Positions 21,903-60,282 of a DNA stretch of 64,000 nt are shown here, in pieces. The position numbers were made by a program, and so were the translations under genes. The stretch is from assembly GCA_950106755.1 (NCBI GenBank), contig OX467083.1:18843029-18907028 (forward strand), in the 5' to 3' direction. The number at the start of each line of letters is the position of its first letter. The stretch's first letter is position 1. The notes under the pieces are model-generated. The model had not been told where the DNA came from. It worked only from the letters and a program-made list of their open reading frames with translations, and did not search any database. This DNA comes from Climacium dendroides. Taxonomy: Eukaryota > Streptophyta > Bryopsida > Hypnales > Climaciaceae.

Positions 21903-22112
21903 GCCTGACCCTGCCCATTTTCAGGTCTCTGGTTTTCACGTGTTGTTGTTTCCTGTCTTAGTGCCTGAGCTTTTCCGTTTACGGCGGTGAGGAGTGGAGA
22001 GTACGAGAAAGCCCGGTAGTGAGTGAGAGGTGTAAGACGGAGAGATCACCTCCGAGCGCGAGTAGGTGAGACTTGAGCGCGAGCGGATACGGAACAATGA
22101 TAGGCTGAGAGT

Positions 22113-23870
22113 ATGAGCGCGCAAGGAGGTTGGTTTGTAGGTGGAGCAGAAGACCAGAGTGTGAGCGCTCCCTTGTTAGGTCAGCAGAGAGTGAATCCGA
22201 GTAGGGCCGCCCTCATGCCGCGGCTGAACCGGAAGAGACCAGGCTCTAGCACCCCACCCCGGAGTGAAGTGAAGTTGAGGAAAGTGGTTCTGATCATGTC
22301 GACCAAGGAACCGGAACAGGGAGAACTCAGGGATGACTTAGCATCCATGGGTTGTCAGGGATTAGCCTTGAAACCTTGGGGTTTCAAGGATGAGAAGATG
22401 ATTAGGGAGCTTCTGGGTGGCGTATCGAACGAGTTCGATAACACCCTGAGAGGGAATCCGGTTCAGTGGACCGAGGATTTGTGGCGAGCCGTCTACGGAT
22501 TCTGGACGGGAGGACTCGGGCTTGCCAGCTGGAAGGATGATTACATCCAGGGCAAGTTCGGGAGTGTCGTGAATCCGAAGGATGGCTACGCGGTAGAGGA
22601 CTATATCGATGACCGGGAGCGTCGCCTGCTGCAGTTCCTTGTTCTGGTCTTGCATCCGGAAAAGCCGACCAGGGTAACCATCACCCTGGGTAACACAATC
22701 TTCGGAGCGCTGTGCGGAAACCGAAAAGTAAACTCGGGCTGGATCTTCTTCGATTTGGTGTCCCAGCTTACTACAAGAATGGAAAAAAGTAGGGCTACTC
22801 CACTGTGCCCTTACGTGTACCACCTCTACCTGCAACAGGAATTGCTGACGGAAGTGGAGATGAAGGTTTGGAAGGCCCAGGAGCGGACCATGAAGTATGG
22901 TGAATCCGAGTCCGACCAGGAAGCGGATTCCGGGAACGAAACCGAGGAAGAGGAGGAAGAGGAGGAACCGCAGTTCACCTCTAAGAGGCAGAAGACCACG
23001 CCGACCCGGAATCAAAGAACGCCTCCGGTTCAACCCCGGCCGCGCAAAGAGGAGGCTCCAACCGGACTGGATATGCCATCCGGATCGGGAACCGGAGATC
23101 CGTTCGACGAGTTGGTTGGGATCCTCTGCGGAATCCGGACGGATTGGGAAATCAAGAAGCGGACGATCGGGGAGATCGCGCAATTGATTGGAGCGGAACC
23201 GGACAATCAGCTACCACTCCGGGTAGTTGAGAGTGTCATCAATCCGGATGAGCTCCGGAAGATGAAGGCGGAAAGCAAGCGACAGCATGATGAGGTTGAC
23301 ACCCTCAAAGCCGAGCCTTTCACCTTACTCGAGAACGCCACTGTGACAAGGGAGATGGCGGAGGAAATGAAGAAGCTGGTCGCGGAGGTGAAGGACGTGC
23401 TCGGAGGACTCGGTGCCGCGATCACCAAGACGCGCCTGTTCGAAGAGGAGGTGCACAAGGAAAAGAAAATATCCGGATCAAGGGTGGTGCACATCCTCAC
23501 CGATTTTGAGGAGCAGATGGAGAAGCTCCTGTCCAAGGCACAGGAGTCAACGGACTGGATCGTGGAGAGCAGCCAGAAGTTGACAAAGATTCCGGTCCGG
23601 CTCTTTGAACTTTCACTTCCGGACTTGTTTCCGGAAGAGGCAGCTCAAGAACCGGGGAAGGACAAGACGCTCCAGTCAAGCAGGGCACATAAGAAGACGC
23701 CCTCGACCGGACCGCAGCCGATCGATTTAGATTCCCCGGAAACTAATGAAGATCGCTCGGCTCCACCTCCGGATGGGGAACGGAACCGGAATCTAACTGA
23801 AGTGTTCGAGCAGTTAGAAAGACCTGACGAGAGTCCTACCATCGGATCTCGAGTATACGAGGCAGAATAG
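22113..23870 (+). CDS. unrecognised coiled-coil protein of plant transposon type, 585 aa
   Basis: An intact ORF from ATG to TAG. Residues about 60-245 form a conserved globular part shared with the ORF at 34962 (KDGYAV ... RERR-L-F, then NTIFGAL-G-RKV). An acidic stretch follows at about 265-290 (runs of Glu). Residues about 340-500 are helical and rich in Glu, Lys and Leu, likely a coiled coil, and the tail is Pro/Ser-rich and polar. Domain order resembles gag-like or 'putative plant transposon protein' ORFs, but no nucleocapsid zinc knuckle, protease or polymerase is present, so function is unknown. Codon use is much richer in C and G than the flanks. A long minus-strand ORF (22362-23183) is its shadow. 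An alternative start is the Met near residue 63 (MSTKEPEQ), where similarity to the second copy begins. Confidence 0.75.
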   Translation: MSAQGGWFVGGAEDQSVSAPLLGQQRVNPSRAALMPRLNRKRPGSSTPPRSEVKLRKVVLIMSTKEPEQGELRDDLASMGCQGLALKPWGFKDEKMIRELLGGVSNEFDNTLRGNPVQWTEDLWRAVYGFWTGGLGLASWKDDYIQGKFGSVVNPKDGYAVEDYIDDRERRLLQFLVLVLHPEKPTRVTITLGNTIFGALCGNRKVNSGWIFFDLVSQLTTRMEKSRATPLCPYVYHLYLQQELLTEVEMKVWKAQERTMKYGESESDQEADSGNETEEEEEEEEPQFTSKRQKTTPTRNQRTPPVQPRPRKEEAPTGLDMPSGSGTGDPFDELVGILCGIRTDWEIKKRTIGEIAQLIGAEPDNQLPLRVVESVINPDELRKMKAESKRQHDEVDTLKAEPFTLLENATVTREMAEEMKKLVAEVKDVLGGLGAAITKTRLFEEEVHKEKKISGSRVVHILTDFEEQMEKLLSKAQESTDWIVESSQKLTKIPVRLFELSLPDLFPEEAAQEPGKDKTLQSSRAHKKTPSTGPQPIDLDSPETNEDRSAPPPDGERNRNLTEVFEQLERPDESPTIGSRVYEAE

Positions 23871-34529: not shown

Positions 34530-37500
34530 TCCGGAATCGGATCTGCATCCGAGGAACGGAACAGGGGTCGAAAAATATACCGGGGCCGGAAGCAAACACA
34601 TCCGCACGCTACCGGAAGATTATCGAGACGGGAAGAGGAAATCCCGGATCCAACGGTAATTCCATACATCACGGAGGACCGTTTTAACGGCTAGTTTCCT
34701 CCGCGATGATTGCGGAAACGGCTACTTTCCCAACGGTTGTGACTGCTAGGAAGGGATACGCAGGGGTTTGGTTCCTCAAACCTCATTGTGTCTTTGTGGT
34801 TTGGGAACGCTCTTAGAGCAAGGTCTGCCTTTAGAGGTGTGAGAGGATTGGGTGATCTTACTTTCCGGATCCTGTCGTAGAGAGGAGGAGGATTGATCGG
34901 GAGCTGTGGCAAGAAAAGGCAGGAGGTTTGAGTGGTGAGTGTTTTGGAGAGTTCTGCAACCATGGTGAAGGCGGAAGCAAGCGGGTCATTTTCTTTCAAG
35001 ATCAAGAGCATCTGTCCAGTGATTCCGAAGGATGACGGAGAGCGGAAGCAACTGGAGGAGGATCTGGGCCAACTCGGGTATGCGGGATTCCTCTGTCGAC
35101 CATGGAGCTTGAAGAGCGAGGAAATGATCCAAGAGCTGATGAAGGAGCAATCGAACGAATGGATCAAGACCGTCCGAGCTCTGCCCGGAAGGTGGACTGT
35201 GGACATCTGGAAGAGGGTCTACGACTTTCCTCGACCTGGAGAGGGGATGGCTTCGCGGGTATACAAGTTCGCAGAAGGTAAATTCTCTAATCCTCCTCAC
35301 CCTAAGGATGGCTACGCAGTAGCAGATTGCAAGGTGGCAAGAGAGAGGAGGATGTTAGAATTTGTAGTACCGATCCTGTATCCGAAACGGCCAAACCGGG
35401 TCATGGTAACTTGGGCCAATACGATCTTCGGAGCGTTGAGTGGGGAAAGGAAAGTGTTTTGGAGAGGAATAGTGAAAGATCTGGTAGGGAAGATGGTGAA
35501 CGCCCTAGGAAACGCAAAGGCCACCCCCATTGGGCCATTCCTCTTTCACTTGTATGACTTCCTAGGTACTCTGAAAACTTCAGAGAAGACCATGTATAAG
35601 GCCACAGCCACCCTAGTGAAACTTAATCTTACTCCACCCCGAGAGGAAGAAGAAGAAGACTAGAAGAGAGAAAGGAGGGACCAGATGAGGGATCTGAGAG
35701 GGGATCCTCAGAGAGAAGGAAGGAGCCTTCCGAAAGGAGGACAGAGGCTGAGAGGGTTTCAGTCTCTTCTAAGAAGGGATCCAGAGAGAAGAGGAAAGTC
35801 TCGCCGGAACCGGAAGTTCTGGGAGAGGATACTTTGGGGAGGATCATTTCGGACTTAGGGAGAGTCCGAGAGGAGCTTAACACAGAGAGAGGAGCAGTGA
35901 GGGATGTATGTGGACTACTTGGAGGGATCAATGTGTCAGAGCTCGCGGAGAAAGTAGAAGGGTTGATCCGGGATAGTGAAAACCGGAAGTGGGAGACCCG
36001 CATCAAGGAGTTGACTGAGAGGAATGCGGATCTCCAGCGGCAAATTGAGAAGGGTGAGGAAAAGAAGAGAGAGGTGGAACGGCTTACCTCAGAGTTTAAG
36101 GGGGCCATTAGGAGAGTTGGGGCCTTTGTTTCCAACACTGTGGATGTTGTAAACAAAGCCAAACTCTATGATGAGGGAATCCATGAGGCAGGACTGGAAG
36201 CCACAGGTAAGGCTGTCTTAGTTTTGGTAGAGTATTCTGAGGAGATGGAGAGGTTCATGTTTGAAGTCCGAGATGTTCTTCACCAAGCAGAACTGTTTTC
36301 GGAATCCGGAATAAAGAGGAAGGATGAAGAGATGGAGCCAACCAAAAAGGATGCGCCCACAAAGACTCCAACAAAGACGCCAGCCAAGCGGGAAAGGCAG
36401 GAGGATGAGTTGACACCAACCTCTAAGGGTATGGAGGGGAGGAAAAAAGGATCAGTGCACAGATCCGGATCAAAGGATCAAATCCGGAAGTCGGAATCCG
36501 ACTTAGACACACCACAGAGTAAAGGCTCTCAACCCTCACTCGCCAAGAAAATTGTGAAGAAGGTTACTCTCGTCAGAGGAAGAGACGTGCCTCTAAGGAG
36601 TCAACAATCCGTGGAGGACGAGTCTCCAAGCCAATCCGAGTGGGAGGAAAGTCGGTCGAGATCCGGAGAAGAGGATTCGGAAGACACCGGATCAGAAGAG
36701 GAATCAGAACCTGAGCAAATCTCACCAACAAAGTTCAAAGGGAGAACCTCAACACCGTCTAAGGGAAAGCCGCCCTTGAGTGGGAAACCGTCAGCCAGTA
36801 GGAAACAACCAACTAGGAAGGGGGCAACAAAGTTAGAAGAACCTTCTCCAAAGAAGGCTAGGAAATAGATAGGAAAGTTGTTAGGAAGTTTCTGGGAAGC
36901 GACCCTAGCATGGTCAGCCAAAAATTCAAGTTTTTGATAGGTAGGAAGTAGCTTGGGAGGTGCTTTTCAGGTGCATGCACTTGGGCTGCACTTTCCGGAT
37001 TTTTAGGATCTGAGATCCACATTTTGCGGATCGGATGGGGTTGGTAGGATAGTCAACTTAGAAGGATAAGGAATGACACCTGTGATTCTCCTGTCCTTTA
37101 GTTTTATTCTTTGGGACCTTTGGGGTTCCCTGGAGTGTGTATTTAGGGGGCTGAAGTTAGTTTGAAGCCCGGGGGTGTTTTCTTATTTGTGTTTTTCATA
37201 CACTTTGCGAATTGATTTCAGATTTCCACTTCATAAGTGCTGGCCTGAAAAGGCTAAGTTCTGTGTTGGTATGCCGTGCAATGCTAGAACCATTGTTTAG
37301 TGCGAGTAGCTGGTTTGCAGGTGTGGAGGAAGACAAGTAGCCCCCGGATTCTGTCCAAGATCTGATTTTGAGAGCTTTGAGGATTTGGTTAAGGAAAACT
37401 TTGTGTACTGAGAGGGTATTTTAGTTGCTGAAGTTCCTTGGGAGTCTTCTGAGTAGGATAGCCATTCTTAGGTTGGGTGAATTCTTCAGGAGGGAGAACG

Positions 37501-41337: not shown

Positions 41338-41799
41338 TTGCAAGCTATGGAGCTTACTTGGACAAAGTGTGCACGCATGGACGGAGGCATTTCTTATGGC
41401 TGTTAAGAGTTTGAACCCTTTGAATCTGATCCTATGCTTTGTGACTATTGTAAATGCCATCGTCATTTCCATATGGTTGTTGGAACATTGCCTTATGAAC
41501 ATGGCTGCTGTAAAAGTAATGTCCTTGATTTTTGTCAATGTTTCTTACCATCTGCAGAAAATGCCAAAAAATGTGGTTGTTGTGGTTGTCATAAAAAATT
41601 TCATGAGAAAACTAGTAAGAACAAAAATCCAACAGAGAGTATTAGAGAGAAGTGTGAAGTAGTTGATGAGAGAAGATCACTTCTTCCTCTTGGAAGTGAG
41701 GATCAAATTTTAGATCCTTCTCCTAAAAGAACCAAATTTGATGAGAGAGGAGTGAAATCCAAGGTTGCTATTGTGCGAGCCTGGAGCAGGAGCCTGTGA
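41338..41799 (+). pseudogene. relic with two ZF-HD/MIF-type zinc-finger motifs
   Basis: Behind a possible acceptor (AAATTTCAG at 41337) one frame reads from ATG 41347 to TGA 41799, broken by TAA at 41404-41406. It has two copies of a Cys/His pattern: GGISYGC-stop-EFEPF then CDYCKCHRHFH, and YEHGCCKSNVLDFCQCFLPS then CGCCGCHKKFH. C-x2-C-x-C-H-x2-F-H preceded by GC-EF-P is the hallmark of the zinc-finger homeodomain (ZF-HD) dimerisation motif, also found alone in MINI ZINC FINGER proteins. The tail is polar and no homeodomain follows. The stop lies inside the first motif, so either it is a pseudogene or the coding exon begins later (TTAAG|AGTTTG is a possible acceptor). Two such motifs in one protein would be unusual. 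Confidence 0.5.
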
Positions 41800-44645
41800 G
41801 CCTATGAGCGGGAAGTTTTTTTGATGAGAAAACTTGTGGAAAAATTTGTATATGATAGGGGGAAGTTGTGATTAACCCATGACCGTGGACTTGGAGTCAA
41901 CCGAGGTTCTATGACCGTGGATGTCATTCATAATTATATGTATGTAAGTTAAGGGTCATTTGTGGACTCTTAGAGGCACTACCACTATTGTAGAGAACAT
42001 TTTTCACATAAATAAGAATTAATTTGTTGTCACACATGAAGTGGTCTAAGAATGGGAAGGAAAATGAATGAGCCCAAGATCTAGCATCTTCTTTTTATCA
42101 ACTATTGATTGTTTACCATTGAAGATCATTTTTCTTTACTTCATTTCTCATGTACATTGAATATCAAACGAGAAGCACAATGCCTGCAGCTTGTAGCCAT
42201 AAAACACACAAAATCAAATCAACATAGAAATCAATACACATAATTCAACTCATAAGATACGTCAATCTTATGAGTCTAAGTGGCAGTGGAGTTGGCCATA
42301 GAAACCTCACTCAAGGATGACTCTAGAGTCTCCTCACCTTCAGAAGCTGAAACGTCTAGAAAATGAACTACGTTTGCAGCATACTTGGGTTTGGAAGGCT
42401 TAGGCTCTCTACAACCATGTCGTTCATACTGTGATGCCATCTTCTCGGCATACACTGGAAGATCGTAAGACTTCTCGAGACTCAAAATAAGTCTTCTGAT
42501 CTTCTTCACACAATGTTCATCCATCACTCCTTTGTTCCTTCAAAAACAAACAATGCAACGTTAGTCATATTGATTTATGAAATGCAATACTTGTTGAATA
42601 CAAAAATCTACATGTCTTCCAAAAGTGAAACTTACTTACTAGGTCTAATGTTGCGTGTAAACACCATTGGTTCCACGTGCACGGCATCCAGATCAAGAGT
42701 GGCAAAAACTTCTGCCGGAGCTTGTGTCATTTCTTGCACTGGAGCGGCTTTTTTCATTGGCAAGAGAACCCCCTTGAAGATATTCTCCTCCTCCTCCAAA
42801 GCCACAATATGCCGTCCAGTGCCACGACATGCAAGAATCGATGCACCTATAGTACAACCATGCGAGCATTAGAAGTTCACAGATTTTACATACACACAAA
42901 CATTTTAATTTAGGACTCTCATTTCAAAGTATTAAATCACCTGTAGCAGTGGTGCAGTCCAAAACTACATCTTCTTCATCCGAGCAACCTTCGATGAAAA
43001 ATTGTAGGAACCTTGCATCTTTCTCTCGCGGCCCGCGCCAAGGCTTTTTTGATTCCTTGTTGACTAACATTGTCTCCTCGGTGATATAATTGATGACCAT
43101 GTCCTTCCTCTGAAGATTCCACTTTGCTTTCGTCATGGCCTCAGTCTGCCTGAATGTGAAGGCTGATTTTTTTTTCTCACCCAAATCCTTCACAAAAAGG
43201 GTGACTCCGAACTTCACAGTCTGCAAAAAGGCAAAAAATGGTTTAGTGCAAGGGAGAATGCCGCTAAACCAATTGACATGTGCACTATACATTTAGAAAA
43301 ACTTACCGTCTGACTAGGTGTAATACCCGACACTAGGTCCAATTGGTTGAATGCCAACCACTCTTTCTTCATCACCAACTTCTTGAAGACGCTCTTCAGT
43401 CCCGCAAACATATGCCGCGATTGAAGGCTGTATGAGTGAAATACAAGAACGCAGCCATTGTCTTGTAAGCTCTCCTCGGCGAAGTGAAATGCATTTTGCA
43501 TTCCCGCACACGTTGGGTCCGAGTTCCATGCCGGAACATGCTTTTCAAAGATGAGTGGTACGGGCAGGTTCTCTTGGCAATCAAAAATAATAAGATCCAC
43601 CAAAGGCTCTTGGCTCACCCTGCCGTTCAATGAACGAGGTTTTCCTGCATTTGCCTACAATCCAGTGATTGTACATGTTATTAGAAGATAAAAAATGAAA
43701 CTATTTGTTCATCAAGAAATCCTATGAAGTTACAAACTGAACTTCATGTTGCCACACACCTTTCGAATGAAGTCCATGACCTCAATATAAGAATTAGGTG
43801 GTGAACTCTCCAAATTGTCCATGATATCAACAATGGATACATTCAAGATTAGTTCCTCCAACTTGACGTCGTCATCATCTAATATAACCACCTGCGTGCC
43901 TTGTGTCACCATATCCTCCGTCCACTCGGCAAGCACAACCTTCCTCTTCATCCCACTCTGACTTCCCTGCACCAACTTCGAGCTCTGATCGACCGCTGAT
44001 GATGTAGGAACGACGATATCACCATCATCTTTTTTCTTCCCCTTTGCCTTTGCTTTCTCCTCCTTCTCCTTCTGCTTTTCCTTTTCCTTCTCTTCTATCT
44101 TTGCCAAACGCTCTGCCTCCTTTTTTTGCTTGTTATCTAAAGCAATTTGTAGACGATCCGCTTTCTTCTTGTCAGTGTTGTTCCTCCTTTCAATTGCCTT
44201 GCTCCTTTGATCTTCGGTGAGGCCCGCAAACTCATCGACATCCATGTCCACCGCTCCAATGTCCTTCAAGGAATCGCGGAGTTGTACCTCCGATGGATGC
44301 GTGTACGATATTGGGCAATCAATGTACCATCCACCACCATTTAGATGGGCCGTGGTAAATGTTTTGAGCTGATTTGCCGTGTACATGCAACTTGCGGAAT
44401 TGCGATCTAAGAAGACCGAAAGGAATGGAGGAAGGTCTGCCCTCTGGATGGCTCCTTTTCCTTCCAGTTCAAACTTGAAGTAGCTGCATCATGATAAACA
44501 AAGAATGGTAAGCACGAATTGTAAAAATCAAATTAGATAGAAGAAGAATTTCAATCTCATGTACATGTGCTTCAAAGCAACATTTCTTATGTCTCAAGAA
44601 ATAGAAGATCAAAAAATTAAATTGTAGACCTTTCAAAGGACAGAA

Positions 44646-44728
44646 ATGGAGGTCCCCCAACTACTTCTAGAGCATGCCTCGGATCTGAAGCATGTTCTAC
44701 AGGTAGCCTAAGGACCCCCTATTTTTTT
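44646..44728. repeat. diverged GGATCC-family palindrome in methyltransferase intron 8
   Basis: GGAGGTCCCCC at the left and GGACCCCCTATTTTT at the right surround a core GCCTCGGATCTGAAGC. The arms are only partly complementary now. Layout and core match the 162-bp-unit palindromes at 48.6-49.2 kb. Confidence 0.6.
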
Positions 44729-47700
44729 CCCTTCGTTCATCTCTAATAGGTTTCCTGCTTCAACAATGTATTTTTAGCCAAATGACAAGAGATTTTTAAT
44801 TCAAATAGTCACTTCCAAATGAATATTTTTTTATCCAGTTGAAGACATACCGATAAAGGACCCTCTTCACTGCCTGTTGGGACCCCTCATAAGTGTTGAA
44901 GTTGTCGCTTTTCTTGAAGTACTTAGCTCCTCTAAGATGAGCCAAGAACCCATGATCCCAAATTTTCCTCCTCCACCCTTCCAAGTATTCCGGTAAGGTT
45001 TCTAGTTGAAGCAGAACGTTCATATTGATGATGATGTTGTCTTGCTTGACAATTTCCTCGAAGTATTGTATAACTGCATCTTCAATCTGTAGAAAGAGAT
45101 GCCAAAACCAAAATCATATGATATGCACTGCCTTCCAAGAATTCTAATTTCTCAATATCCTAGTGAATATGAACTATGATGGCTTTCAAGTTGAATTACA
45201 TGAATAGGTAATCACTTACCCCTGCGTACCAAACACAACGGTTCAAGAAAGGACCAAGTAGTGTCTCTGACACTGGCCTAGGCGAAAAACGTCTAGCATC
45301 ATGTGATGGTGTAGAGGAGTTCCACCACTTCAGGAATTTGATCTTGTGATCTGCCGTGGTATTGCAAGTGGCCACCATTTGGAGCTTCTCTAGAGTCATC
45401 TCCGGAACCTCATTGGAACTCCAATGTTTCTCAATCTGGTCAACAAAAGGAAAGCAGAGGATGTTAGATTCTGAGGTTTGCATGACATCAATAGATTCAG
45501 TTTATGATGTAGGTCATGAAATCACCTCATCTAGAAAACCTTGCTTGTTAGCTGGATTCGCCACCACAACCAACTTAGACATTTTGACGTTGAGTTTACT
45601 GGTCTTCTCATGAGCTCCGGATTTCATGGCATGCGCCAGTTCCTCAGGAGTTCTGTCATCCTCCGGTGTCATCTCATTGTACCTCCGCCCTGCTGCATCT
45701 GCTGACTGGGCAATTTCTTGCTGCAAAGGTGTGACAAAAAAGAATTACACATATATGATTGTATAATAAAATGGTACAGACAAATACAATAGAAACGAAG
45801 GGAGAAGCATTCACAAAGATTCTTACCCTGAAAACAAACGACGTGAAGACTTGTAGTGGCATAGAATACTAAGTCTTTTTAGCTTTGTATGCCCCACACA
45901 GTCGGAGCTCCGATGGCCTGAGCATCTCTTTGAACCGCTCAATAGTAAGGAGACCATATTTTTGAACCCTGTATAACGTGTGCACCAAATTGGTCTTCAT
46001 GTGTGAGTCTTCCGTGGACCTGATATGCACAAAAGCGATTTCAGTTATTATTGTACCCACAAACTGCAACATACCACAAACTATAAGAACAACCTAACTT
46101 GGGGGCTGAAGTGAGCGGCAACAGTCAAATACTACATGCAATCAACTGATAGGGTGCCTAAAAAACATTTGAGATAAGTAGTATAATTTGTCCTTTAATG
46201 CTCCAGGGTCCTAAAATACCATTCTATGTCTTCTAACAACTATAGGGTATGTAATAATAGCGTTGTATTAAGTGTGTCTATTTTTAAAAAGAAAATGTAG
46301 ACCTTTGAGAAGGTAAATCCATAAAACATAAACAATTTGAATATGAAGAAATGCATGTTATAGAGTTGACAAAGAAAATGTTCACTTAGTGTTACGCAAC
46401 ATACAAATAAATTTTCCAAGAAAGGATGTGAAGAAAATAAATGATAATGTTGAGTTAACAACAATGGATAACATATGGAATTTGAACATAAATAAATGGA
46501 TGTCACAGAGTGCCCCCCCCTGAGAAATCAACTGAGGCATTAGAATTCCAAAGAGGGAGATTACACACTTACTTGTTAATGTCATGCATGACATGCATGA
46601 CTAGCTCGGTCTTGCCCTTGGTATCTAGTACAATGGAATCCACTGCGTAATGCCACTCCTCGTCTTTCGAGTGTTTTTTGGTAATGTAACTCATCCACGA
46701 GATGAGTCTATGATTACCATCACAAACATAGAACTTAATGTTCTTCAAAAACCTCAGCTCGGGTTTGGAATCGACACTAGCATTGAAGGCATCATTTTTT
46801 GCCTTCCACAATGGATCCCACTTCTCTATCTCCTCTTCTGTGAACTGTGAGCTTTCTCCAGCCTCATCTGTAGTGGTGACGTAGAAAACTGCCGCTCCTT
46901 CTCTGTATCCCTTGCTGAACTCATGCTCTAGGAAATCAAGATCACACGAGAGGGTAGGCCTCACCATGGGCATGGGAACCATTCGGCAAAGTGGAATTTG
47001 GAGTTGAAAGAGGTGAAGTGGCTTCATCCTCAACGAAGCAATGGTATTCACAGAGTCTACCTTGTGATATTGTCGGAGATCGTCTTCCAACAAGTCTTTG
47101 TCATCAGCCCTCAATAGGTCATCGAGAACGTCCTCCTCCATTGCGTCTCTCTCTTCTTCACCTTCATCTTCACCTGCAATGGGTGGTTGCACTGAATCAT
47201 CGGTGTTCGGCGTTTCCAAAATAGTCTCCTCGTGCCACAGGTTTGTAGGAGTCCCATCCATCTGCGAGGTTCAACCATGAAATTGAGCAATAGCCCTGGA
47301 CTCTCATCAATGGATCCCTGGACTCTCATCAAATTCCCCTAGAAACTAAAGTATACTAGGATTTTGTAAAAAATTATTGCATGAGAAATGACGCAGCAGA
47401 GGCAAAAGATTTAGAATCAAAGGACATGCATTGTATAAGAAACGCTCACAAGCGATGTGCCTTTAAAGGAAATCCAATACAATGGGATCACTCAATGTCC
47501 ACATCTTCCTCTGAGTCAGAGCTCAGATGGATGATGACAATTTCTTCTAAACCTTGGAACGAACTACGTGCACAATCGCGGATCTCCTCCATCGGTGGCC
47601 CGTCAATGGTGATGGACCCCTGCGTCTTCGAGGAATACTCCATGGCCGAACTCTCGGGAGACATACACTACAGCGGGCGGTTTCTAGCCATCTCAAGTAT

Positions 47701-48587
47701 AACTTGAAGACGTCTACGTTTCTGTGCGGGCATAAAGTGGCGTGCATATCTCGGTGCTCGGGTGTCACTCACCCGACTGAGTTTAGAACTCTCAAAGGCA
47801 TCCACAGCGTGATCAGCTGTGTCCATGACATCATCAAAACTTACCAAGTCCTCATTATGAACTTGATCCTCCTCAGTGTCTTTGTCTTCATCAGAATCGT
47901 GAAGAACCTCTAGAGTCTCCTTCAGTGGTGTGAGAGCCTGAGATGGTCCTGCCTCATGGATGCCCGTGACGTGAGGAGGTACCAAGGTCGATGAAGAGAC
48001 ATTTTGGCCACGTCTAACCTTCTGTGGATTGCAACATTTTTGAAGTTAGAAATGCATGCTCAAAATCATCTAATGCCACATAGTGCTTGAGGAGATCTAC
48101 AAATGAAAGTACATTTTTAAAGTCCAAAAGAATTAAAAGAGTTCCACCAACGCACGTAGAGACGTACATGGTTTTGGACATAGAAGGTACAGTGCAATCG
48201 ATCCAATCAATTTCTTTATGCTTTCTAAACAATGATAAGGAACATAAATCATAGTAAGAGTATCAAAGATTACCAAACACTGTAAGGACCAACAAGATCA
48301 TCATACATCAGAGGAATCACGAGGACCACCCAAACCACTAAGAATAAGCACAGTTACCAAACACTGTAAATAGAAACATCAGGATCACTGAATACAGAAC
48401 GAATTACCAGGATTTAGGAAACTCCTCTACAATCCAAGAGATTTTATTACATCCTGACCATTATTAGGATCTCTAAACACTATCACACTTAGAACAAAAA
48501 CAAATTATTTCAAGAAAAAGAAGAATCAAAGTACACCTTTCAAGGCTAAGGAGCATCACAGATAATCATAATAATTTAAATTCATTG

Positions 48588-49161
48588 AAAATAAGGGGGT
48601 CCTAGTGAGTGCCTCCAACCAAGCCTCGGATCCGAGGCTTCTTTGGTGGCACTCACTAGGACCCCCTTATTTTTGAAATAAGATAAATCCGATGGCATGT
48701 TCCAAAACTAATCAATGACAAAATATAGTATGATTTTCACAATTTCTATGAAATAAGGGGGTCCCCGTGAGTGCCACCAAACAAGCCTCAGATCCGAGGC
48801 TTGTTTGGTGGCACTCACGGGGACCCCCTAATTTTTGAAATAGGATTAAACCTAAGGCATGGTCCACAAGTAATAAAAGGCTAAAGTAAGCATGACCCAT
48901 ACGATTCCTAGAAAATAAGGGGGTCCCCGTGAGTGCCACCAAACAAGCCTCGGATCCGAGGCTTGTTTGGTGGCACTTACAGGGACCCCCTCATTTTTGA
49001 AATAAGATTAAACCTAAGGCATGGTCTACAAGTAATAAAAGGCTAAAGTAAGCATGACCCATACGATTCCTAGAAAATAAGGGGGTCCCAATGAGTGCCA
49101 CCAAACAAGCCTCGGATCCGAGGCTTGTTTGGTGGCACTGTCGGGGACCCCTTTGTTTTTG
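48588..49161. repeat. four 162-bp tandem units, each with a palindrome of about 84-90 bp centred on GGATCC
   Basis: Palindromes span 48588-48673, 48751-48834, 48912-48997 and 49072-49161. Their centres fall at 48630.5, 48792.5, 48954.5 and 49116.5, exactly 162 bases apart. Each reads AATAAGGGGGTCC, GAGTGCCACCAAACAAGCCT, then the core CTCGGATCCGAG and the complement back out to GGACCCCCTTATTTT. The spacers share GGCATGGTCCACAAGTAATA-type sequence. The arms are almost perfectly complementary and the units differ at few positions, so the array is young or kept uniform. The core holds GATC and a BamHI-type site. It lies in the long intron 2 of the ParB-methyltransferase gene. Confidence 0.95.
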
Positions 49162-49725
49162 AAATAAGAATAATCCTAAGGCAAAGTCCAAAGCTAAGCA
49201 CCGTCAAAGCATATACTTTCAACATCGCCAAACACTGTAGAAATCAACAATCACTAAGCACAATATACTAAATGGATCAAGAAAATGACCAATCACTATA
49301 AAGATCAATAGGATCACCAAACACTACATGAATCTTAAGAATCACCAAACCCTATAAGGATAAGTGAGATCACCAAATAGCAAAGAAATCTTGATGATAA
49401 CCATCAATCCCAAGAATTCACCGGACACAGGGCACTTATCACCGGTCACCATCCACCGGAAACCGGCTTAGAAGGTTTACTCTTCCAAAACTTCAATACT
49501 GCTTTAATCCACATTCCCAAAACTACAAGACTGCTTATGATCTGGAGCACCCATTCATTCCTAAAACATTTTTGGCATTCAGATCCAATGAATGTTGAGC
49601 ACTGGTTAAGTACTCAATAACAAACTCGGTGGAATAGGGGCATTTTGGTTTACAAAGAATATGTATTCTTGACTCAGAATCTAGGAAATTTCAAAATTCT
49701 TTCCAATTGTATCTAATTTTAGTGG

Positions 49726-50268
49726 GTCCCCAGGAGGGCCTCTGATTGTGCCTCGATCCGAGGGTGAATTCTTCCAACTGAGGTGGACCCCAAACAATCA
49801 ATATGTTCGCCCATGCGACGTCACAAAAACTGGACAAATCCAAAAACCTGGATCTGAGGGTGGTCTCTTCCGACCCAGGGGGACCCCCGAGAATCAGAGG
49901 AAGCGCCTTCGAGATGTCACAGAAGCAGGATACAAGATGAAAAGACACCGACAAAAAAAGTTTGAAATGGTGAATATTTAAAGATTCATTGCGAATGCTT
50001 GGCTTTCACAACTGCAGGGATGCTTGGCATTTGAGAATGCCTTCAAGATTCTACTCCCCAGGAGTTGGAGATGATAGTGTTCGAGTGCAGCTTCAACTGC
50101 CCAACACCAACTCTGCATCTCCAAAATCTAAGAATTCTAAACCATTGATCCAGTTCGGCCTATCAAGAAAGCGGAACTTCGAAAAAAAATTTCAAATTGA
50201 GGGGGTCCCCACAGAAGCCATTGACTGTGCCTCGGATCCGAGGGTGGTCTCCTCGAACCCAGGGGGAC
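49726..50268. repeat. GGATCC-family repeat units left of the CACTA element
   Basis: At least three diverged units carry GGGTCCCC, then CCTCGGATCCGAGGG or near variants, then AACCCAGGGGGACC (cores near 49758, 49850 and 50240). From about 49879 the sequence GACCCCCGAGAATCAGAGG begins a unit of about 390 bases that recurs on the other side of the CACTA insertion at 51795. So the CACTA element interrupts a tandem array. Confidence 0.75.
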
Positions 50269-51794
50269 CACTAGAAGAAAAAAGGGGGTTCTGCGACTAC
50301 GCTACGCAACTGGTTTTTCAGTTGCATCGGACATTTGCGACTGAATTGCAACTAGTGATAATTTGGAATTTTGTAGTCGCAGTGGACACTCTAGAATCTA
50401 GAAAACGTTTGTAGCAATACACCTTGTCTGTGACTCATTTGCAACTTGTTTGCAACTTGTAAATTTGTAGATTATTAAAACATTAGTCTTGATGATTTGT
50501 AGATTTCAAAATTTCAAATCTACCTTTTTCTAGATTTTAGGATTTCAAATCCACCTTTTTGTAGATTTTAGGATTTTAAATCTACTTTTTTTCTAGATTT
50601 CTAAATTTCAGATCTACTTTTTTCAAGATTTTAGAATTTCAAATCTACCTTTTTCTAGATTTCAGAACTTTTGAACTACCTTCTTCCTAGATTTCAAAAA
50701 TTCAAAAATTGGTATTTAATAGATTTCATTAGTTTAGGAAATTTTACAATTTTATAGATTTTAAAATTTCTTAATTTCCAATTTTTTTTAAATTTCTATT
50801 GGTTGTAGAATTTTGTATTCTATAGAATTCTAAATATTGTAGAAATCTACAAACTGTAGAAATCTTAGAATTCTACCAACACAATTCATTGCATAAGACA
50901 ACAATAGCTTACAAGTCTTATATGTCCAACTTTAAGGTACTCTTGACAATAGATATGGGACAACTGAGATACTAAAAAATGATTAAGAAGCAACTAAGAT
51001 ATTGAAAAACAACTAAGAAACAACTAATGTATGACTTAACAATGACTAGGAAGCAACTAAGACAACTAATGTATGACTTAAAAGTGACTAGGAAACAACT
51101 AATTTTACTACTACAAAACTCAATTTTTAGTAGATAAGTGAAACAAATCTATACAATCAAGTCAACAAAATAGCTAAATTTTCTAAGAGTGTAAAATGAC
51201 TAAAAACCAAATGGGCAATTTCATTAAAATGGAGACATTCCATTATTTGGCACTTTTAACAGTTTAGATTGTGCAATCTGAAATCTATATCCATCCTAGA
51301 TTTCTAAAATCTATGAAAGTCCTAGATATCTAAAATCTAGATTTTTACTAATTTTTTAAAATCCCGTAGTCTAAAATCTATATCAGTCCTAGATTTTTGA
51401 AATCTATAAATGTTCTAGATGTACATAATCTATATTAGTCTTAGATGTCATTTTGCAATTGAAACCCCGCAGATTGAAAAATTGCACAGAGAAATATAGA
51501 ATGCTACCATTTTAATGAAATTTGCTATACAACTAAAGTACAACTAGAAAGCAACTAGGAAACGACTAGAAAATGACTAAGAAATAACTTTGGTCATTTT
51601 ATAGTTGCAATTTTTCTCTAGTTGTTTCCTAGTCATTTTTACAACTATAGATTGACTGCTTTGCGACAAAAACAATAATATAAAACAATTAAATTAAATT
51701 TGGTGCAAATAGAGAGGATTTCAGTCGCAGGATAGTTGTATAGGACACTAGTCGCAGAACGTCCGGTTGTGGCGGACACGTTTTTCTTCTAGTG
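50269..51794. mobile_element. non-autonomous CACTA (En/Spm) transposon, 1,526 bp
   Basis: The element starts CACTAGAAGAAAAA and ends with the exact complement TTTTTCTTCTAGTG. It is flanked by GAC on both sides (50266-50268 and 51795-51797), the 3-bp target duplication expected of CACTA elements. Sub-terminal zones carry short GCGAC / GTCGC words (GTTCTGCGACTAC at the left, GTCGCAGAACGTCC at the right), as in the transposase-binding regions of this superfamily. The inside has no transposase ORF. It is AT-rich, with a repeated AAATCTACCTTTTTCTAGAT phrase (50490-50720) and repeated AACTAGGAAACAACTA-type words (50930-51130, 51535-51620). It is a deletion derivative or MITE-like member needing a transposase from elsewhere. 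Confidence 0.92.
50490..50720. repeat. short AT-rich tandem repeat inside the CACTA element
   Basis: The phrase ATTTCAAATCTACCTTTTTC with TAGATTTTAGG recurs about six times with small changes and a period of about 35-40 bases. It lies wholly within the CACTA element and probably arose by slippage. Confidence 0.7.
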
Positions 51795-52200
51795 GACCCC
51801 CGAGAATCAGAGGAAGCGCCTTCGAGATATCACAAAAGTAGGATACAAGATGAAAAGACACCGACCAAAAAAATAGGAAATGGTGAATATTTAAAGATTC
51901 ATTGCGAATGCTTGGCTTTCACAACTGCAGGGATGCTTGGCATTTGAGAATGCCTTCAAGATTCTACTCGCCAGGAGTTGAAGATGATAGCGTCCAAGTG
52001 CAGCTTCAACTGCCCAACACTGACTTCGTATTTACAAATTTACAAATTCTAAACCAACAATCCAGTTCAGCTTGTGAAGTAGGTGGAACTTTTAAAAAAA
52101 AATTTCAAATTGAGGGGTCCCCACGGGAGCCACTAACTGTGCCTCAGATCCAAGGGTGGTCTCCTCGAACCCAGAGGGGCCTCCGAGAATCAGAAGAAGC
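51795..52200. repeat. GGATCC-family repeat unit right of the CACTA element
   Basis: From GACCCCCGAGAATCAGAGG this block repeats 49879-50268 nearly base for base, including ATTCATTGCGAATGCTTGGC and the AACCCAGGGG end. It then begins another unit (CCTCCGAGAATCAG). The copy contains a changed core (CTCAGATCCAAGG). The ORFs at 49989 and 51902 start identically only because they sit in this repeat and are not genes. Confidence 0.85.
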
Positions 52201-54311
52201 GCCTTCTAAATGTCAACAGGGCTGGACAAAACGAGAAGATGACACCGAGCAAGGAAACCAGTGAAGGTTGACCCAGAGAGAATTGGGAAGGCGAGAGATG
52301 CAAGAATTGATAGAGTACCTTAGCAATTCTTGTCTCCATCGGAGGAACAACCACTTCTTCTGGAACTTCGCCCGACCGACTCCGAGTGGTCCTTGTCGTC
52401 TCCCGCAGCTGCCCAAAACGTGCACAAGCAAATCAAAGGACAAAATGTGAAGATGCTGTGAGGTTTGTAAGTTCCTATGGCCACTGAATTCGCAACGAAG
52501 AAAGTACAGCGCACCATGTTGCATGCACCGCAACTTGAGCATGGGAATTCCAATTTTAGAAACAAGGCCGATTTTGGAAATTCTCCGCGGCTGCGGATAG
52601 GGTTTTCCACCATCACCTCCGGATCACCAGGCCCGTCGTGCGAGTGGAGATATATCACCTCCGAGGGAATTTGAAATTCCAAATCAAATGAGCCGCGATT
52701 CAGATCAAATGACCCTACAGTTCTTGTTCCAGAAATTCACAAGAATAGTAGGGAATCTTCAAATTAAAAAAAAATAGTCCTACGGGGACGCCGCGGTGCA
52801 CTAAGGTCACCGGACATTCAAAAGTACAATGCATAGAGAGCATTTCCATTTGCATCGCTGCAAGAATTTTGAAAAAACAAAAAATCCATCCCCTCTTGCA
52901 TTTGTGGATAAGGCCCACATCTGGAACCGTGGATTAGTCTTGGGAATCAATGGTCCAGATTAAATTTGGATCCATCGTAGGTGGCATAGCTTGAGATGTT
53001 GCCACGTGGTCTCTGAAGACGGGTTGAAGTCTTAGAAGAAGTCACGAAGAGATGTTTTTCAAATCCTAAGCGATTTGGAAATTGCAATATAATATAAGCA
53101 ATTGGAATGAAAAATAGCCCCTTTTGTCTATTTGAAGGAGACATTTATTTTATTCACCCCTAAATGCCTAAGGCACCCTAAAGATGTTTGTCCCAGACCA
53201 AAAGCGTGAGGGGTTATCATTGTCTTCAATAAAACAAAGTTTTTTCATTTTGATGTCTGACAATGAAGGTGTTGAAAGAGCTTCTTTCCTAAACCAATGT
53301 TGAGTCTGTAAATCTGAAGGAATACTTTCATTATTACAAATGAATCAAATGTTTCTTTTTATAAATCCTATCAGTCACCACAATTTTTTTGAAATTTGAA
53401 AATCAATGTTCTCTAGGATTGGAGGTGACATGAAGAACTACGTATAGTGCTAGCACATTGAAATGCGCTTTCATTGAAGTTATTGTTGTATGAAAAGCTG
53501 TGAAATTCACTGTACATAGTACCATCAAGTTGATGGAGTGCAACTGCTCTTATAAAAGGATAGAAAATTTGACCAAATTCACACTTCAATATTTGACACT
53601 TTCACTGATTTACTTAGGGGCTAACTAAGATTTTGAAAGCATAACTCTATTCACGAAGAAAAGAAGTTCTCAAACTTTAACATCTATTTGCTTTATTACA
53701 AGTATGCGAAGACAATGTGCAACCAGTATTTCCTGTGAAAATGGTAGTATCCTCCTGCTAACTGTTCTACCAAACCATCTCAAAATACAGGACTTCACTT
53801 ACAAACAAACTGAGAGGGTTTTAATGAATAGAAGGTTCTTAGATAGACGTGTCTTCCAATCCACATATTCCTACTACGTATACACTAATACAGTTACAAT
53901 GACGTACTAGAGCTTGCCACAGAAATCTTCTATCTTTTGGCGTTCCTGCTAAACCACGAAGAGGGAAGAAAAAAGGGATACTAAATGAGTACTCTGAAAG
54001 CTTCGTACCATGGCGTCCGCTGTCTGTTTGCCACGTTGGAAACTTGGATTTTCTAAGAACACCTCTAGCACTGCCTCAACATCGACAGCATGCACATCCT
54101 CCTCACGAGCAGTACTCCCACCTTCATATCGAAGAACTCTCCGCAAATCCGTGGGTGCCGATTCGGCAGTCTTTGGCACCGCTCTCCCTCCTCTCGTCAT
54201 TCTGGATCGCCTCAGTGCCTTGGATGATGAAAAATATATGGAACCTCGTCTCCTTCCTCTCTTTCTAGGTCTCAAACTAATGAACTCCTTCACTGAGTTG
54301 TCTACAAGCAT

Positions 54312-55408
54312 GAAGGGAGCTCAAATAGCCTATTCATCAACGCTCTCAACTACAACACCAACACTGAAAGCCAAACCATTTGAATGAAGACAAAGAATAC
54401 AACTGGTGGTCCTTATATTCTACAGTATGCTTGCGCGCGCCGTCACATCCTCATTTAATAAGACTAATACAAATGGCAAGAGGATGCATAAGTCGGCGCA
54501 TGGCAGGTTCCTTAATGTGCCCACTATTTGAAATCTACAAGTACACTGACAATGGTGGCGGAGCCTACATTGAAGATGATGCCGCCAATCCAAAATGACG
54601 AGTAAGCTATTCAAGAGGGGTATAATTCCTTATGCATAGGCTTCAATACTCGCACATGCCAAAGCTTGAGCACAATCCTGTGCATTAAAAAACAAAATAT
54701 AGTAGATCGTCAGAGTTCTGATTCTAAGTTTTTCTTAATGAGAATAGGACTTCCAGACTTCGCATGTTTCTCTTAGAAATATGAACTGCTAGTAATGAAT
54801 AGTCTAATTGACTGTTCAACTAATTACTAATGCAATTTTCTAAGTTCACTTATTGGATTCTGAGATGAGGAGTTCTCTTTGCTTTTCATTTTCTATTTTG
54901 ATGTATATTGGAGATACTGAAAGAAATTAGAGTAGAGTAGTGGTAAAGTGTGATCACATGGAATAGACTTTTGAGAATTTGTTTATACCTACGGATGACA
55001 AGGACATTCTGCGTGTGCCTTTGTAATGAGCATTCATTTTAATTGAGAAGAGAAATCCTTAAAATATTTAGTTATTAATCACACTCAAACCCTACGGATT
55101 CGTTAGGATATAATTAATTGATTTTTAAGGAAGCTTCACTAGGTTTAACAGTCACGTAGTTTTCCGAATTTGATGTACATGGAAGACATTATTGCTTTTT
55201 GGCAATTGCCATAAAATGGCAGTAAATGTCTTCGGAAGAAGAATACGGCTCAATTATTTGGTTCAACCCTGAGTCTGTAAGACTACCCTAGGCGAACCAA
55301 AAAAGAATCTTAATCATTCAAAAGCCAGAGCTCAATTGTTGTGTACCTCTTCTCCTTGCTTGCATTTGGATTTTCGGCATTCTTTGAGTGCCTCTTCCAG
55401 TTGCAACA
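54312..55408. promoter_or_regulatory. divergent intergenic region between ParB-methyltransferase and MULE genes
   Basis: The two genes point away from each other with about 1.1 kb between the likely start codons, so this must hold both promoters and 5' UTRs if both are read. No strong TATA box was fixed on either side. The ORF at 54380-54598 has no domain and was not accepted. An AT-rich part (54.75-55.15 kb) lies in the middle. Confidence 0.4.
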
Positions 55409-58400
55409 ATGGCGTCGATGAGAGTTGATGGTTATGACATTCCTCTGGTATTCCCGGTTGGTGATGATGGGCACGCTAGAGTCCCTTGTCACCTTCTACA
55501 CGTTCGATTCAAATTTGTAGAGTCCTCCATCTATGTCGAGGAAGAAAAAAGGTCGGAATCAGGTGAAGTGCTTCAGTCTATTCCGGTAGTGAAGTCGGCG
55601 GAGGATGGAACGTATTGTTGGTTTCTTACTCCTGGGAATTACAGAGCGTATGGACTTCCATTGTCCATGCTAGGTGCATCAACAGAAATCCAAAGTCGAC
55701 AGTTAGATAATTCTACAGTTGATATGCCATGTAGTCCTCCTGCCCTGTCACCTACCCCAAGTAGAGAAGCTCTACGAGTCCCACACATGCCTCCAATACT
55801 TCCTGATGTGAAAGTGGAGAGATTAGATCCAATTATAGAGTTGTCTACCGAATCTGAAGGAGAGTCTCCCAATGTCATTGCTCGAAAGCGAAGTGGTTCT
55901 GTCCAGATTGCATCTGGAGAAACAGGCATTGGAAAATCACTGTCTAGTACCCCGTCAAGAAGTCTCTCTAATTTGTCACCATCACTACCTCCAATACAAA
56001 CACATGTACTAGCAAAAGCAAGCATCATGGAGTGTCTGAAAAGACTTGCCAGTATGCATCGCTCTCGAAATGAATTGTCAACAATGGATCTGAGCACTGT
56101 GAAGCACCAAAGGGTTCCATTTCTCCCACTTGTATACGACGGGGATGTCATCTTCGAATTGCCTCCTTGTGGACTATCTTCATCTTCAACGGGGGCCAAG
56201 CACTTGGAAGGAATGGACAAGCGCTACGATGGACATCCGTGGTGCAAGCTCATGACCACAAACATCCACAACTCCGACAACCTCAAATTTCGTAAGTCCT
56301 ACTGTGCTGGCCATCTCGTTTGTGAGAATGCCAATTGTCAGTATTTGAAAAGAGCTTCACGGCAAAATGAAACTGAGTGGAGTGGCTACACTGTGTTTCC
56401 TTTCACTATTGGCGGGTGTCCCCCAAAAGAGTCTAGCCTAGTTTGCAAGGTTTGCAAGATGCCACCAACATATTTTGGCACATGCAAGGCTAGGATATAC
56501 TTTGCGTATACTGAGAATCCAGAAATGAGTAGGGCTGCTATTCACCTTGGAGAGCATGGCCACCCTGTTGCTAGAGGTATGTACAGAGATTCTACTCAAG
56601 TGATTTGAGGACTGATCGCGGAGCAAGTGGCCAAAACACCCACAGCCACAAACTCCGCAATAACTCTCTCTGCTAGTAAAGACTTTCTCGGAAACTATCT
56701 ATTTCACAATGGAGAGGGGGAGAAGAAGATGTTGAAAGCAGAGGAAATGGAAGAGGTCATGGATCGCTTCCAATATTTGAGTAGTCCAAGTATTCGCAAC
56801 GTCATCTCTTCTTTCCGTTCTAACAACCACGGAGGGATAATCGACAACATAATGACCATGAAGAGAGAATCGAAGTTTGAGTTCATACATGACAGCGTCT
56901 TCCCAGGTCAAGGCAAGGAAAAGGTATACATTTTCAAGATGCTTACAGAAGGACCCGGAAGTGGAGTGGACCTTGTGAGGCGGATGCAGCCAACAGGGGA
57001 CCTGCAAAATGTGTGGTTGATGTTTGACCACGTGAAGCGTGTGAAGGACTGGACCACAACGGCCTGCCACGTCTATGATACGGAGTACAAGAAGGTGATG
57101 ACTATTGCAATGTGCGATATGCAATCCGAAGATACGAAAGTTCAAGTACAATTTTGGCGGAGTTTGAATGCTGTCATGCATCGCCATGGAGTGGCTAACC
57201 CTAACTTTAAGGGATTTATGGCAGATAGCGCCATGGCCAACTGGAATGCGGTCCACATTGTGTATGGTAGTGGCTCCGCCAATGATGAAATGGAGAATCG
57301 CGAGAGGACATGTTTGTTGCATTGGAGTATCTCTCTTCACAAACATACGCAAAAGTACATCAAGGAAGCATTCCAACAGCAACATATTACTTTGTGTAAA
57401 CAATACAAAGATTCGGAGAACATGGACCAAGCGGAGGTCCACTACCTCGCAATACAGTCTTGGTGGTTGTCCTCTGGAGCTGCTGTAGAAAAAGGTGTAC
57501 ATCACCTAGACCACTGGCTAGCTTTTTGGCATTTCCGATACCGTCAATGGGGAGGCTTCATGGACATGGTGAGTGAATTGTGAATTTTAATTTGTACAAG
57601 GGCTAAAGGTTTTGAAGTTCATTTTGTTATAGAAAAGTAAGAGAACTCTACATTCTTGATAGGATTTTAATTTAGTCTTTAATTTTTATTAAAATTTTGG
57701 AATATTTTCCTCCAGACTACCGAAATTGAGGGGTCCTCCAAACACCATAGAAACATGTCTCGGATCCGACTGACGTTTTGGAGGTGTCATCATGACCCCG
57801 TCATTTTTGTTAAAAGTAATGAAAATTTGAGTTCTGGTAATAGCAAATGCTTAATATTTTTTTAATAAGAAGGCCGCATTGGAAGAAATAACTTCATTAT
57901 GTCTACAGCCATAATTATATTCCTACCCATACGAGTAATTACAAGGGTGTCACCTTTTGGAATTACACAAGCAACCAAGATACACTGTAAGGAATTTGCA
58001 AGTTCCCACAATTCTACATATGAATTACTAACTCTCTGATTATCTTGCGTGGAATTTGTAGAAATTAAACTTGGAGGAGATGTTGGACTTGCCATCATGC
58101 AATTTATCTGAAACGGTGCATAACAAGTGGCTACAAATGTCTGGAAAGTGAGGAAACAACTTATTTGACGCCACATGTGATGATAGTATCCGGGCTTGGA
58201 TGCAAATGACAAACTACCGGGCATACTTGAAGGGATATGCATCAGAATCAGGGCCATCAAAGGGGGAACTGAGGTTGAGAGCTGCTAGGAGAAGTAGAGA
58301 TCCCAAAAAAATTGCAGAAGCACTGAACACATTGCCTGGAGTAGAGGGTGTGGGAACTAGAGTGCCACACTTGGAAGGAGAAGAAATTTTTGGGAGCACT

Positions 58401-59450
58401 AAGAGGAAATTGGACGTGCCCATTGGTGATGCAGGAGACTCCCATAGACCGGACAAGATCAACTTTTCTCAACCCCGCGTGAGAACGAGGTCCACCACAA
58501 GTGCCTCTCAATCTTTTGAAGACAAGGATAAACAATCTCACCCAAATACTTCTCGACATGTTGTGGTGGCGTTTGAAAGCGATTGCGACACATCTAGATG
58601 GCACATTGCTAGAATCAGCCACAAATCCAACGCAAGATGCCAAGCCCAACAACATAGATCAAACATCAAGTGCACTAGCAAGATTGCAAAAGGGAAGAAG
58701 GGTACTCCAGCTCCTACTTACCGCGGTCGGAAAGAAGAGTACGGGAGTAAGCGAGAGGTGGTGGCTGATTTTTGGTTTTGTTGGGATGACATCGAACGAT
58801 GCGTGAAAGGAACAAAGCGGAAGTGGGTTCTTGATTGGCCGGAGGTGCCGGAGGTTTGGCCTGTCCTGTCTGGAACGAACTTAAGCCGAGAGGAGACATT
58901 GTTGCTATAGCATGCAGGATTTCGCCTCCAAGAACGCCCAGTCTTGTCACCACGTCGTTTGTTCAACATGTCAAAGATTTTTAGTCCTATTTTGTATGAC
59001 CACCCTTTACCAAAGAACTCGGACATGTATCCAACAGTGAAGAACAGCAGGGCCATTCGAAGGATTGCAAATGCACCTACTGCCGAACAGCGGAACAAGT
59101 GGGAAAGTGCAGGTAATGTTACAGGGCAAATTGTAGGAGTAACACTGCTCCCTCTTCCAGGCCTTGGTGCAATTGTGGAGTTAGAGACAGGGCCTGACTC
59201 CAACAGAAATGCATATCGAGTTACAATGGGCCAATTTCCCACGTGCACATGCCTAGATTTCGTAAATATGGTAGTGTCCGCCATTGGAGGTCGGCAACAA
59301 TACGTCAATTGCAAGCACTTGTACTACTTGTACAGGTACTTTTGCAAGATGGATGTCAACAAAGACAAATTCATTCATGCACCAAGTTATAGCTTCAATG
59401 AGTTGAAAGAACTCCTAGTACGAGCTGGAATGATCACACTTCCAGAATAG
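55409..59450 (+). pseudogene. MULE-type transposase gene with GCM/FLYWCH-like and SWIM zinc fingers, three in-frame stops
   Basis: Two exons, 55409-57568 (720 codons, donor ATG|GTGAGT) and 58062-59450 (acceptor TTTGTAG), same phase; full length would be about 1,182 residues. Residues about 276-385 form a GCM/FLYWCH-like zinc-binding region (HPWCKLM, CAGHLVCENANC, LVCKVCKMPP, GEHGHPV). The DDE region follows, with IAMCDMQSED near 569 and GFMADSAMANWNAV near 602, then RTCLLHWSISLHKHT. Exon 2 opens with a conserved stretch (LPSCNLSETVHNKWLQ). A SWIM finger ends the protein near 1115-1140 (CTCLDF ... NCKHLYYLY; C-x-C ... C-x-H). This order is typical of Mutator-like transposases. Stops interrupt the frame at 56606 (TGA), 58149 (TGA) and 58908 (TAG), with conserved sequence continuing after each. 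Terminal inverted repeats were not found. Confidence 0.85.
57725..57810. repeat. diverged GGATCC-family palindrome in the MULE gene intron
   Basis: GAGGGGTCCTCC at the left and GACCCCGTCATTTTT at the right surround the core GTCTCGGATCCGAC. Arms are partly complementary (CCAAAC against GTTTTGG). It lies inside the only intron of the MULE gene and is the rightmost family member seen. Confidence 0.7.
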
Positions 59451-60282
59451 CCATGTCCACAATTTGCAATGTATTTCAATTGTAATGCGCTCATTTTGTA
59501 TATGACAATTGAAATGATTTGATGCATTGTTTTTCCCAGAAAGAGTGACAAGACCAATGTTCCAGGGTTTGTATTCATGTGTTCCACAACACATATTTTG
59601 AGGTCACTTTTCAGTCTTCACTTGTCCCATAACAATAGGCATTTCAAAATGAATCACTATATAAGCTGTCACGTTCTTGAAATAGTCATAGCTAGAGGAC
59701 CGCTAGGCGAGCTCTGATTGGCCGTAATTGTATGGCATATTATATTCCCAACGGTTCTCTAGCTTTTTGTTCAGGATTGATTATGTCATGTGTACTTTGT
59801 ATTTAAGCAACTCCATATTTGGGCGAGGAAATGGTAAGTGCTGGAGTTGCCTACAAATTAAAATTAGTGGATGAATTTGTGTTCACTGGTGGTGCTTGAC
59901 TTCCACAACCTTTAGGGAAAAAAATATGGTGAGTGATAGCATTGCCCCCCCCCCCCATTAAAATTAGTGGATGAATTTGTGTTCACCGGTGGTGCTTGAC
60001 TTCCACAACCTCTAGGAAAAAAATATGGTGAGTGATGGAATTCACCCCCCAATGTCCAATAAATTTTCATCTAATCCACGGTTATAGGGTACACGGTAAT
60101 AGGTCAGAAATTCGACATTTCTCCTCTTTTTTTACAAAAAAATTGGAGAAAAAAAATTTGGGAGTACAAATTTCCATTTTTGGGGGTTTGGGGGCTCCAT
60201 GCTCACAAGCTCCACGCTCCCGCTCGCACGCTAGCGTCGTTGGAGTGAAATCTGATTTTTTGGGTCAAAATCTCTAGACTCT
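59451..60282. other. MULE 3' flank and spacer
   Basis: No gene. It holds the tandem duplication at 59858-60048 with a 12-base C run. A terminal inverted repeat of the MULE element would be expected near here, but none could be matched. Confidence 0.4.
59858..60048. repeat. tandem duplication of about 95 bp with a C run
   Basis: Two copies of a block running from ATTAAAATTAGTGGATG through GGTGCTTGACTTCCACAACC to ATATGGTGAGTGAT are joined at a run of 12 C (59945-59956). The second copy has a few changes and ends in a shorter C run. The poly-C junction is a likely source of slippage. Confidence 0.85.

Follow-up and report, generated by a model that had tools for sequence, protein, structure and literature searches.

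Background

The ParB fold is described as a versatile module for binding nucleoside triphosphates (NTP) that is frequently fused to methyltransferases in phages, with sulfiredoxin (Srx) as its commonest eukaryotic representative (PMC12704722). In Arabidopsis, the VANC proteins of VANDAL elements are reported to bind the fast-diverging tandem repeats of their own elements and to undo silencing (PMC10398659). The locus described here lies in a 64,000-nucleotide stretch of the moss Climacium dendroides (contig OX467083.1, positions 18,843,029 to 18,907,028, forward strand; the window), where a spliced gene uniting a ParB/Srx-like domain with a methyltransferase fold sits inside a transposon. With a probability of about 0.5, this gene encodes a targeted accessory or anti-silencing factor of a multicopy Mutator-like transposon, in which a ParB/Srx fold is joined to a beta-class fold that now has D-x-x-E as its catalytic motif. 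The gene model, the folds and their fusion, the element and the purifying selection were each established by computation.

A single spliced gene

Ten exons on the minus strand, joined from 47261 to 42276, form one frame of 1117 amino acids (Table 1); they measure 689, 193, 195, 216, 236, 724, 348, 280, 211 and 262 nucleotides, the last length including the stop codon, and all nine introns are GT-AG. The ten exons align in each of three further copies read whole, here called A (contig C10), B (C1) and C (C37). Because they do so with low ratios of nonsynonymous to synonymous substitution (dN/dS), the gene is beyond chance. That both motifs belong to one spliced gene, as a preliminary description of this DNA had proposed, is therefore a real observation and is confirmed, the exon model itself being read from sequence. 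The interval given there, 42276..48021, does hold the gene, but the mobile element that carries it is far larger (41760-60242).

An in-frame TAG (45871-45869) interrupts exon 2 of the window copy; the equivalent codon specifies Trp in A, B and C. The SAM-loop motif of the methyltransferase-like part (SAM, S-adenosylmethionine), VVLDCTTAT|GAS, is split by an intron, running from 42968 to 42941 and resuming from 42846 (minus strand). Exon 1 starts at an acceptor, and a phase-0 join to an exon further upstream is feasible; the candidate is preceded by an AG acceptor before 48021 and followed by a phase-0 donor, GTAAGT, from 47844, which makes it a plausible addition to the model.

Table 1. Features of the gene and of its transposon, in window coordinates
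Feature	Position	Strand	Remark
Exon 1: acidic N-terminus and ParB/Srx-like domain	46573..47261	-	P-motif DGNHR inside 46733-46692
Exon 2, with in-frame TAG	45827..46019	-	
Exon 3	45526..45720	-	
Exon 4	45220..45435	-	
Exon 5	44851..45086	-	
Exon 6, Lys/Glu-rich linker	43760..44483	-	
Exon 7: methyltransferase motif IV region	43307..43654	-	FDCQENL (43585-43565) replaces DPPY-type motif
Exon 8: PWRGPREK (motif X position) and SAM-loop motif VVLDCTTAT	42941..43220	-	
Exon 9: GASILACRGTGRHIVALE, closes methyltransferase fold	42636..42846	-	
Exon 10 and stop codon	42276..42537	-	
Possible upstream exon	47845..48021	-	phase 0 on both sides; sequence reading
Entire transposon copy, 18,483 bp	41760..60242	.	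ends fixed by eye
Target-site duplication GAGTGAAATC, first copy	41750..41759	.	
Target-site duplication GAGTGAAATC, second copy	60243..60252	.	
Transposase-like gene, four open stretches, divergently transcribed	55388..59447	+	homologous in A, B, C and lineages E, F
Four near-perfect palindromes of 84-86 bp in 162-bp tandem units	48588..49159	.	candidate cis site

The ParB/Srx-like domain

Structure comparison supports a ParB/Srx-like fold for the modelled N-terminal part, as the preliminary description had suggested. The P-motif lies within FYVCDGNHRLISWM and is of the G-x-[HR]-R type with the conserved Arg; its N-H-R is invariant in all seven rows of an alignment, whereas copy C, with DRNHR, has another residue instead of the Gly. 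An alignment of 77 members gave weak matches to DUF1015 (9 members, best 0.002) and DndB (2 members, best 0.032), and ParBc was not among the families listed for it (25 of 29). Single-sequence searches with the ParB part, and profiles against the PDB, returned no ParB match; exon 1 had no relative in IMG/VR, and tblastn against phages gave one match only, at an unconvincing E of 7. The top match of this part, KMP-11 (Pfam E 0.001), was taken as chance, though its E-value is no worse than that of DUF1015.

The methyltransferase-like domain

The second domain has a Rossmann methyltransferase fold with motif IV before motif I, as in the beta class (PF01555). A catalytic-type motif followed by a SAM-type motif had been noted in the preliminary description; the order stands, and FDCQENL aligns with motif IV, but it lacks PP[YFW]. 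The N6_N4_Mtase profile (PF01555) does match, at 23.4 bits and E 6.5e-5, but below its curated cut-off of 26.7; a PF01555 assignment is precomputed on the moss relative P0121.

FDCQENL is present in the window copy and in A, B and C. An alignment search returned 564 proteins, of which 120 were listed; the motif pattern was recognised in 83, the other 37 being partly fragments. None of the 120 has a canonical [DNS]PP[YFW], and the last position, which in ordinary enzymes is the aromatic residue that stacks on the flipped base, has Glu in 82 of the 83 and Asp in the remaining one, the motif now reading D-x-x-E (DCQE, DIPE, DVPE). The SAM loop of the window copy is TTATG, the first Gly being absent in the window lineage. 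With the catalytic motif replaced and the loop altered, the active modification module originally put forward is not supported as stated. These observations also bear on the broader alternative of a SAM-dependent methylase acting on DNA or on some other substrate, which would mark or shield the element's own DNA by N4-methylcytosine or N6-methyladenine. Such activity would accord with a fold that matches active N4-cytosine and N6-adenine enzymes, including the eukaryotic N4CMT of bdelloids, with the motif IV Asp retained in nearly all matched listed relatives, with GxG loops retained in some listed relatives (e.g. NAGVG, TAGTG), and with phage genes annotated as DNA methyltransferases that vary at the second motif position too (DLPY, DILY). 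Against it stand the absence of the base-stacking aromatic and of the first Gly, and we regard it as unlikely.

The transposon

The claim that the gene belongs to mobile DNA is borne out by inverted ends, 10-bp duplications and multicopy homology. The ends are short and related to each other, reading CAAGGTTGCTATTGTGCGAGCC from 41760 on the plus strand and CAACGACGCTAGCGTGCGAGC on the minus strand from 60242; BLAST homology stops at 41760 and 60220 against A and at 41755 and 60232 against B, and within these limits the stretch 48252-52803 has no match in A. The flanking 10-bp duplication is a perfect pair in the window copy, B has a perfect pair of its own, and A matches at 8 of 10 positions (by eye). 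Target-site duplications of Mutator-like elements are typically about 8-11 bp, and the long duplication, the terminal inverted repeats and a transposase of apparent zinc-finger/SWIM type, recognised by eye, make this element look like a cut-and-paste DNA transposon of the Mutator-like kind. The transposase-like gene displays, again by eye, two Asp regions, a SWIM-like CxC...NCxH and GCM1/WRKY-like Cys/His patterns; the three of its stretches that were scanned have no Pfam match at E 0.1. In the window copy it carries in-frame stops (56606-56608, 58908-58910), so that this copy represents a large family in a decayed state.

At the left end an open reading frame (41407-41796, plus strand) runs into the element end at 41760; it encodes a ZF-HD dimerisation domain, which Pfam scores above the cut-off (E 2.1e-6); the element seems to have inserted within or beside a ZF-HD-like gene, and a plant origin of the DNA agrees with this domain. 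Inside 48252-52803 lies a pair of direct repeats (49881-50269 and 51794-52181; 390 bp, 88% alike, 1.9 kb apart), perhaps a small nested insertion of the long-terminal-repeat type.

Copies, lineages and selection

The gene is multicopy in its source genome, where exon 1 has at least 151 matches, a lower bound obtained by scoring 150 of 1024 first-look candidates. Copy A is 95% identical to the window copy in DNA, and the proteins of A, B and C are 96%, 78% and 64% identical to that of the window. Over the whole protein, dN/dS is 0.27 between the window copy and A, 0.117 between the window copy and B, and 0.110 between A and B; the value of 0.10 between the window copy and C goes with a synonymous divergence of 2.6 and is hence saturated. 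Taken by part, the ratio between the window copy and B is lower in the ParB-like part (0.045) than in exons 7-9 (0.152); between the window copy and A, which have diverged little, the ParB-like part gives 0.10. By these substitution patterns the ancestry of the four copies is one of selection for protein function, though each copy now carries stops.

The association of the two domains extends further. PF01555 matches the genome weakly at 56 places, never above the cut-off, and in all five that were fetched a ParB-like exon lies upstream on the same strand. Three of these loci belong to lineage D and one each to E and F; the three lineages are diverged, with about 49%, 36% and 37% identity in exon 1; the motif IV region was not recovered in F, and a transposase-like gene lies upstream in E and F. 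In lineage E, retrotransposon-like reverse transcriptase/integrase frames stand between the transposase-like and ParB-like genes (6388-9467 of joined loci L045+L042), probably as a nested insertion. Beyond this genome there is one named database relative, KC19_5G032000 of Ceratodon purpureus; searching with the protein at full length gave no match, perhaps because the Lys/Glu-rich linker dominated the search.

Fragments of host genes are often picked up by Mutator-like elements (PMC6446971), and the gene might be a captured passenger without function for the element. All lineages read retain both domains, however, and purifying selection runs along element lineages, which makes a passenger very improbable. 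Selection on both domains across lineages implies that the protein is of use, and the simplest beneficiary is the element.

As to the source of the module, the searches made turned up no prokaryotic protein that combines the two domains. The phage gene L051, which bears the label 'chromosome partitioning protein', was considered as a possible ParB-methyltransferase fusion and set aside, the neighbour queried being a different methyltransferase and the other labels mainly of methyltransferase type. A bacterial or phage origin, as suggested in the preliminary description, is plausible by analogy because ParB-N6_N4 fusions are frequent in phages (PMC12704722).

Proposed function

In the proposed mechanism the ParB-fold part would bind DNA and a nucleotide; it might form a clamp that is loaded at repeats in the element's non-coding middle. 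The methyltransferase fold would serve as a DNA- and possibly SAM-binding module, not as an ordinary N4/N6 methylase. The protein would act in cis or in trans on copies of its own family, and its most likely effect would be to counter silencing or otherwise license these copies, as VANC does for VANDAL elements of Arabidopsis.

Candidate sites are the palindromes that sit 1.3-1.9 kb 5' of exon 1. Part of their 162-bp unit is present in 27 of 29 other close copies by BLAST, and copy B has a near-perfect palindrome there that shares the GGGGGTCC/GGACCCCC ends but differs in its inside; upstream direct repeats of other kinds occur in A, B and C. Intron 5 contains a repeat (44620-44740) related to the upstream palindromes, whose ends are GGGGGTCC...GGACCCCC. 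Targeted binding at the palindromes would be an attractive but unproven role. A bolder version, rather unlikely as it stands, would make of these elements a whole class of plant transposons with an NTP-gated ParB-type clamp and a methyltransferase fold turned reader of DNA or its marks, loading on palindromic parS-like repeats and evading host silencing.

The linkage to a transposase bears on a further explanation, that the protein is a transposition co-factor without a role in silencing, its ParB-fold domain nicking DNA or bridging the two element ends in concert with the transposase. A ParB-methylase of Bacillus cereus whose ParB domain has non-specific nicking activity is cited in PMC5512222. 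A transposase homologue is linked in six of seven copies or lineages (the window copy, A, B, C, E and F; not seen in D). Plant Mutator-like elements that lack such a protein do transpose, however, and a co-factor role seems possible but doubtful.

Several observations weigh against an accessory or anti-silencing factor. Anti-silencing, DNA binding and NTP binding are predicted functions, drawn by analogy. The ParB-like part gave no Foldseek row at E 0.001 (0 of 75, best 0.08), and the ParBc profile (PF02195), which the preliminary description had proposed as a check, finds nothing in the window protein at E 1. The methyltransferase model, made for a database relative and not for the window copy, has a mean predicted local distance difference test score of 60.6. 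No copy among the four is free of stops (one each in the window copy and A, two each in B and C), and between the window copy and A dN/dS reaches 0.67 for exons 2-5 and 0.60 for exons 7-9; recent copies may thus be decaying. A near-perfect palindrome occupies the same place in only 9 of the 29 other close copies, with none at threshold in A and C, and in lineage D the roughly 11 kb upstream show no homologue of the transposase.

Other features of the window

Long plus-strand open reading frames at 22104-23867 and 34932-36865 have segments in common (NTIFGAL...RKV) and charged tails; 22104-23867 and 34932-35660 have no Pfam match at E 0.1, and these stretches are likely another repeated element family. 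Minus-strand open frames at 6660-10705 have, by eye, the look of a plant membrane protein of the oligopeptide-transporter type.

Comparison with known systems

Each of the two folds is known already, as are phage proteins that fuse them and accessory genes of plant DNA transposons; a spliced gene of a plant transposon that combines them, its active site widely altered, is not seen in the literature listed. Among the matches listed from the open-licence PubMed Central (PMC) literature, none was seen to describe a plant transposon with a ParB or ParB-methyltransferase gene. As in the phage and prophage fusions of the ParB-CTPase fold with N6_N4 domains (PMC12704722), both folds here share one protein in mobile DNA, whereas the gene is eukaryotic and spliced, a long middle region separates the folds, and motif IV is D-x-x-E instead of the DPPY type; in the main text of that survey the word 'plant' occurs 0 times. 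CcrM, M.MboIIA, M.PvuII, M1.HpyAVI and the bdelloid N4CMT have the same fold and the same IV-then-I order over about 190-225 residues, but differ from the moss protein in that its catalytic motif is replaced and, in the window lineage, its SAM loop altered.

A spliced, multicopy and selected eukaryotic fusion of ParB and methyltransferase folds in a DNA transposon would represent a new use of the ParB fold, and the use by plant transposons of NTP-switched clamps and modules derived from amino-methyltransferases against host silencing becomes directly testable. If the reading of a clamp and a mark reader is true, a bacterial device of DNA segregation and modification would have been reused as a eukaryotic anti-silencing machine. 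A parallel in genetic setting can be drawn with VANC; the moss protein consists of ParB and methyltransferase folds, and its anti-silencing role is a proposal. Like the VANDAL elements as described in PMC10398659, the moss element is a DNA transposon that carries an accessory gene together with fast-diverging tandem repeats in its non-coding part.
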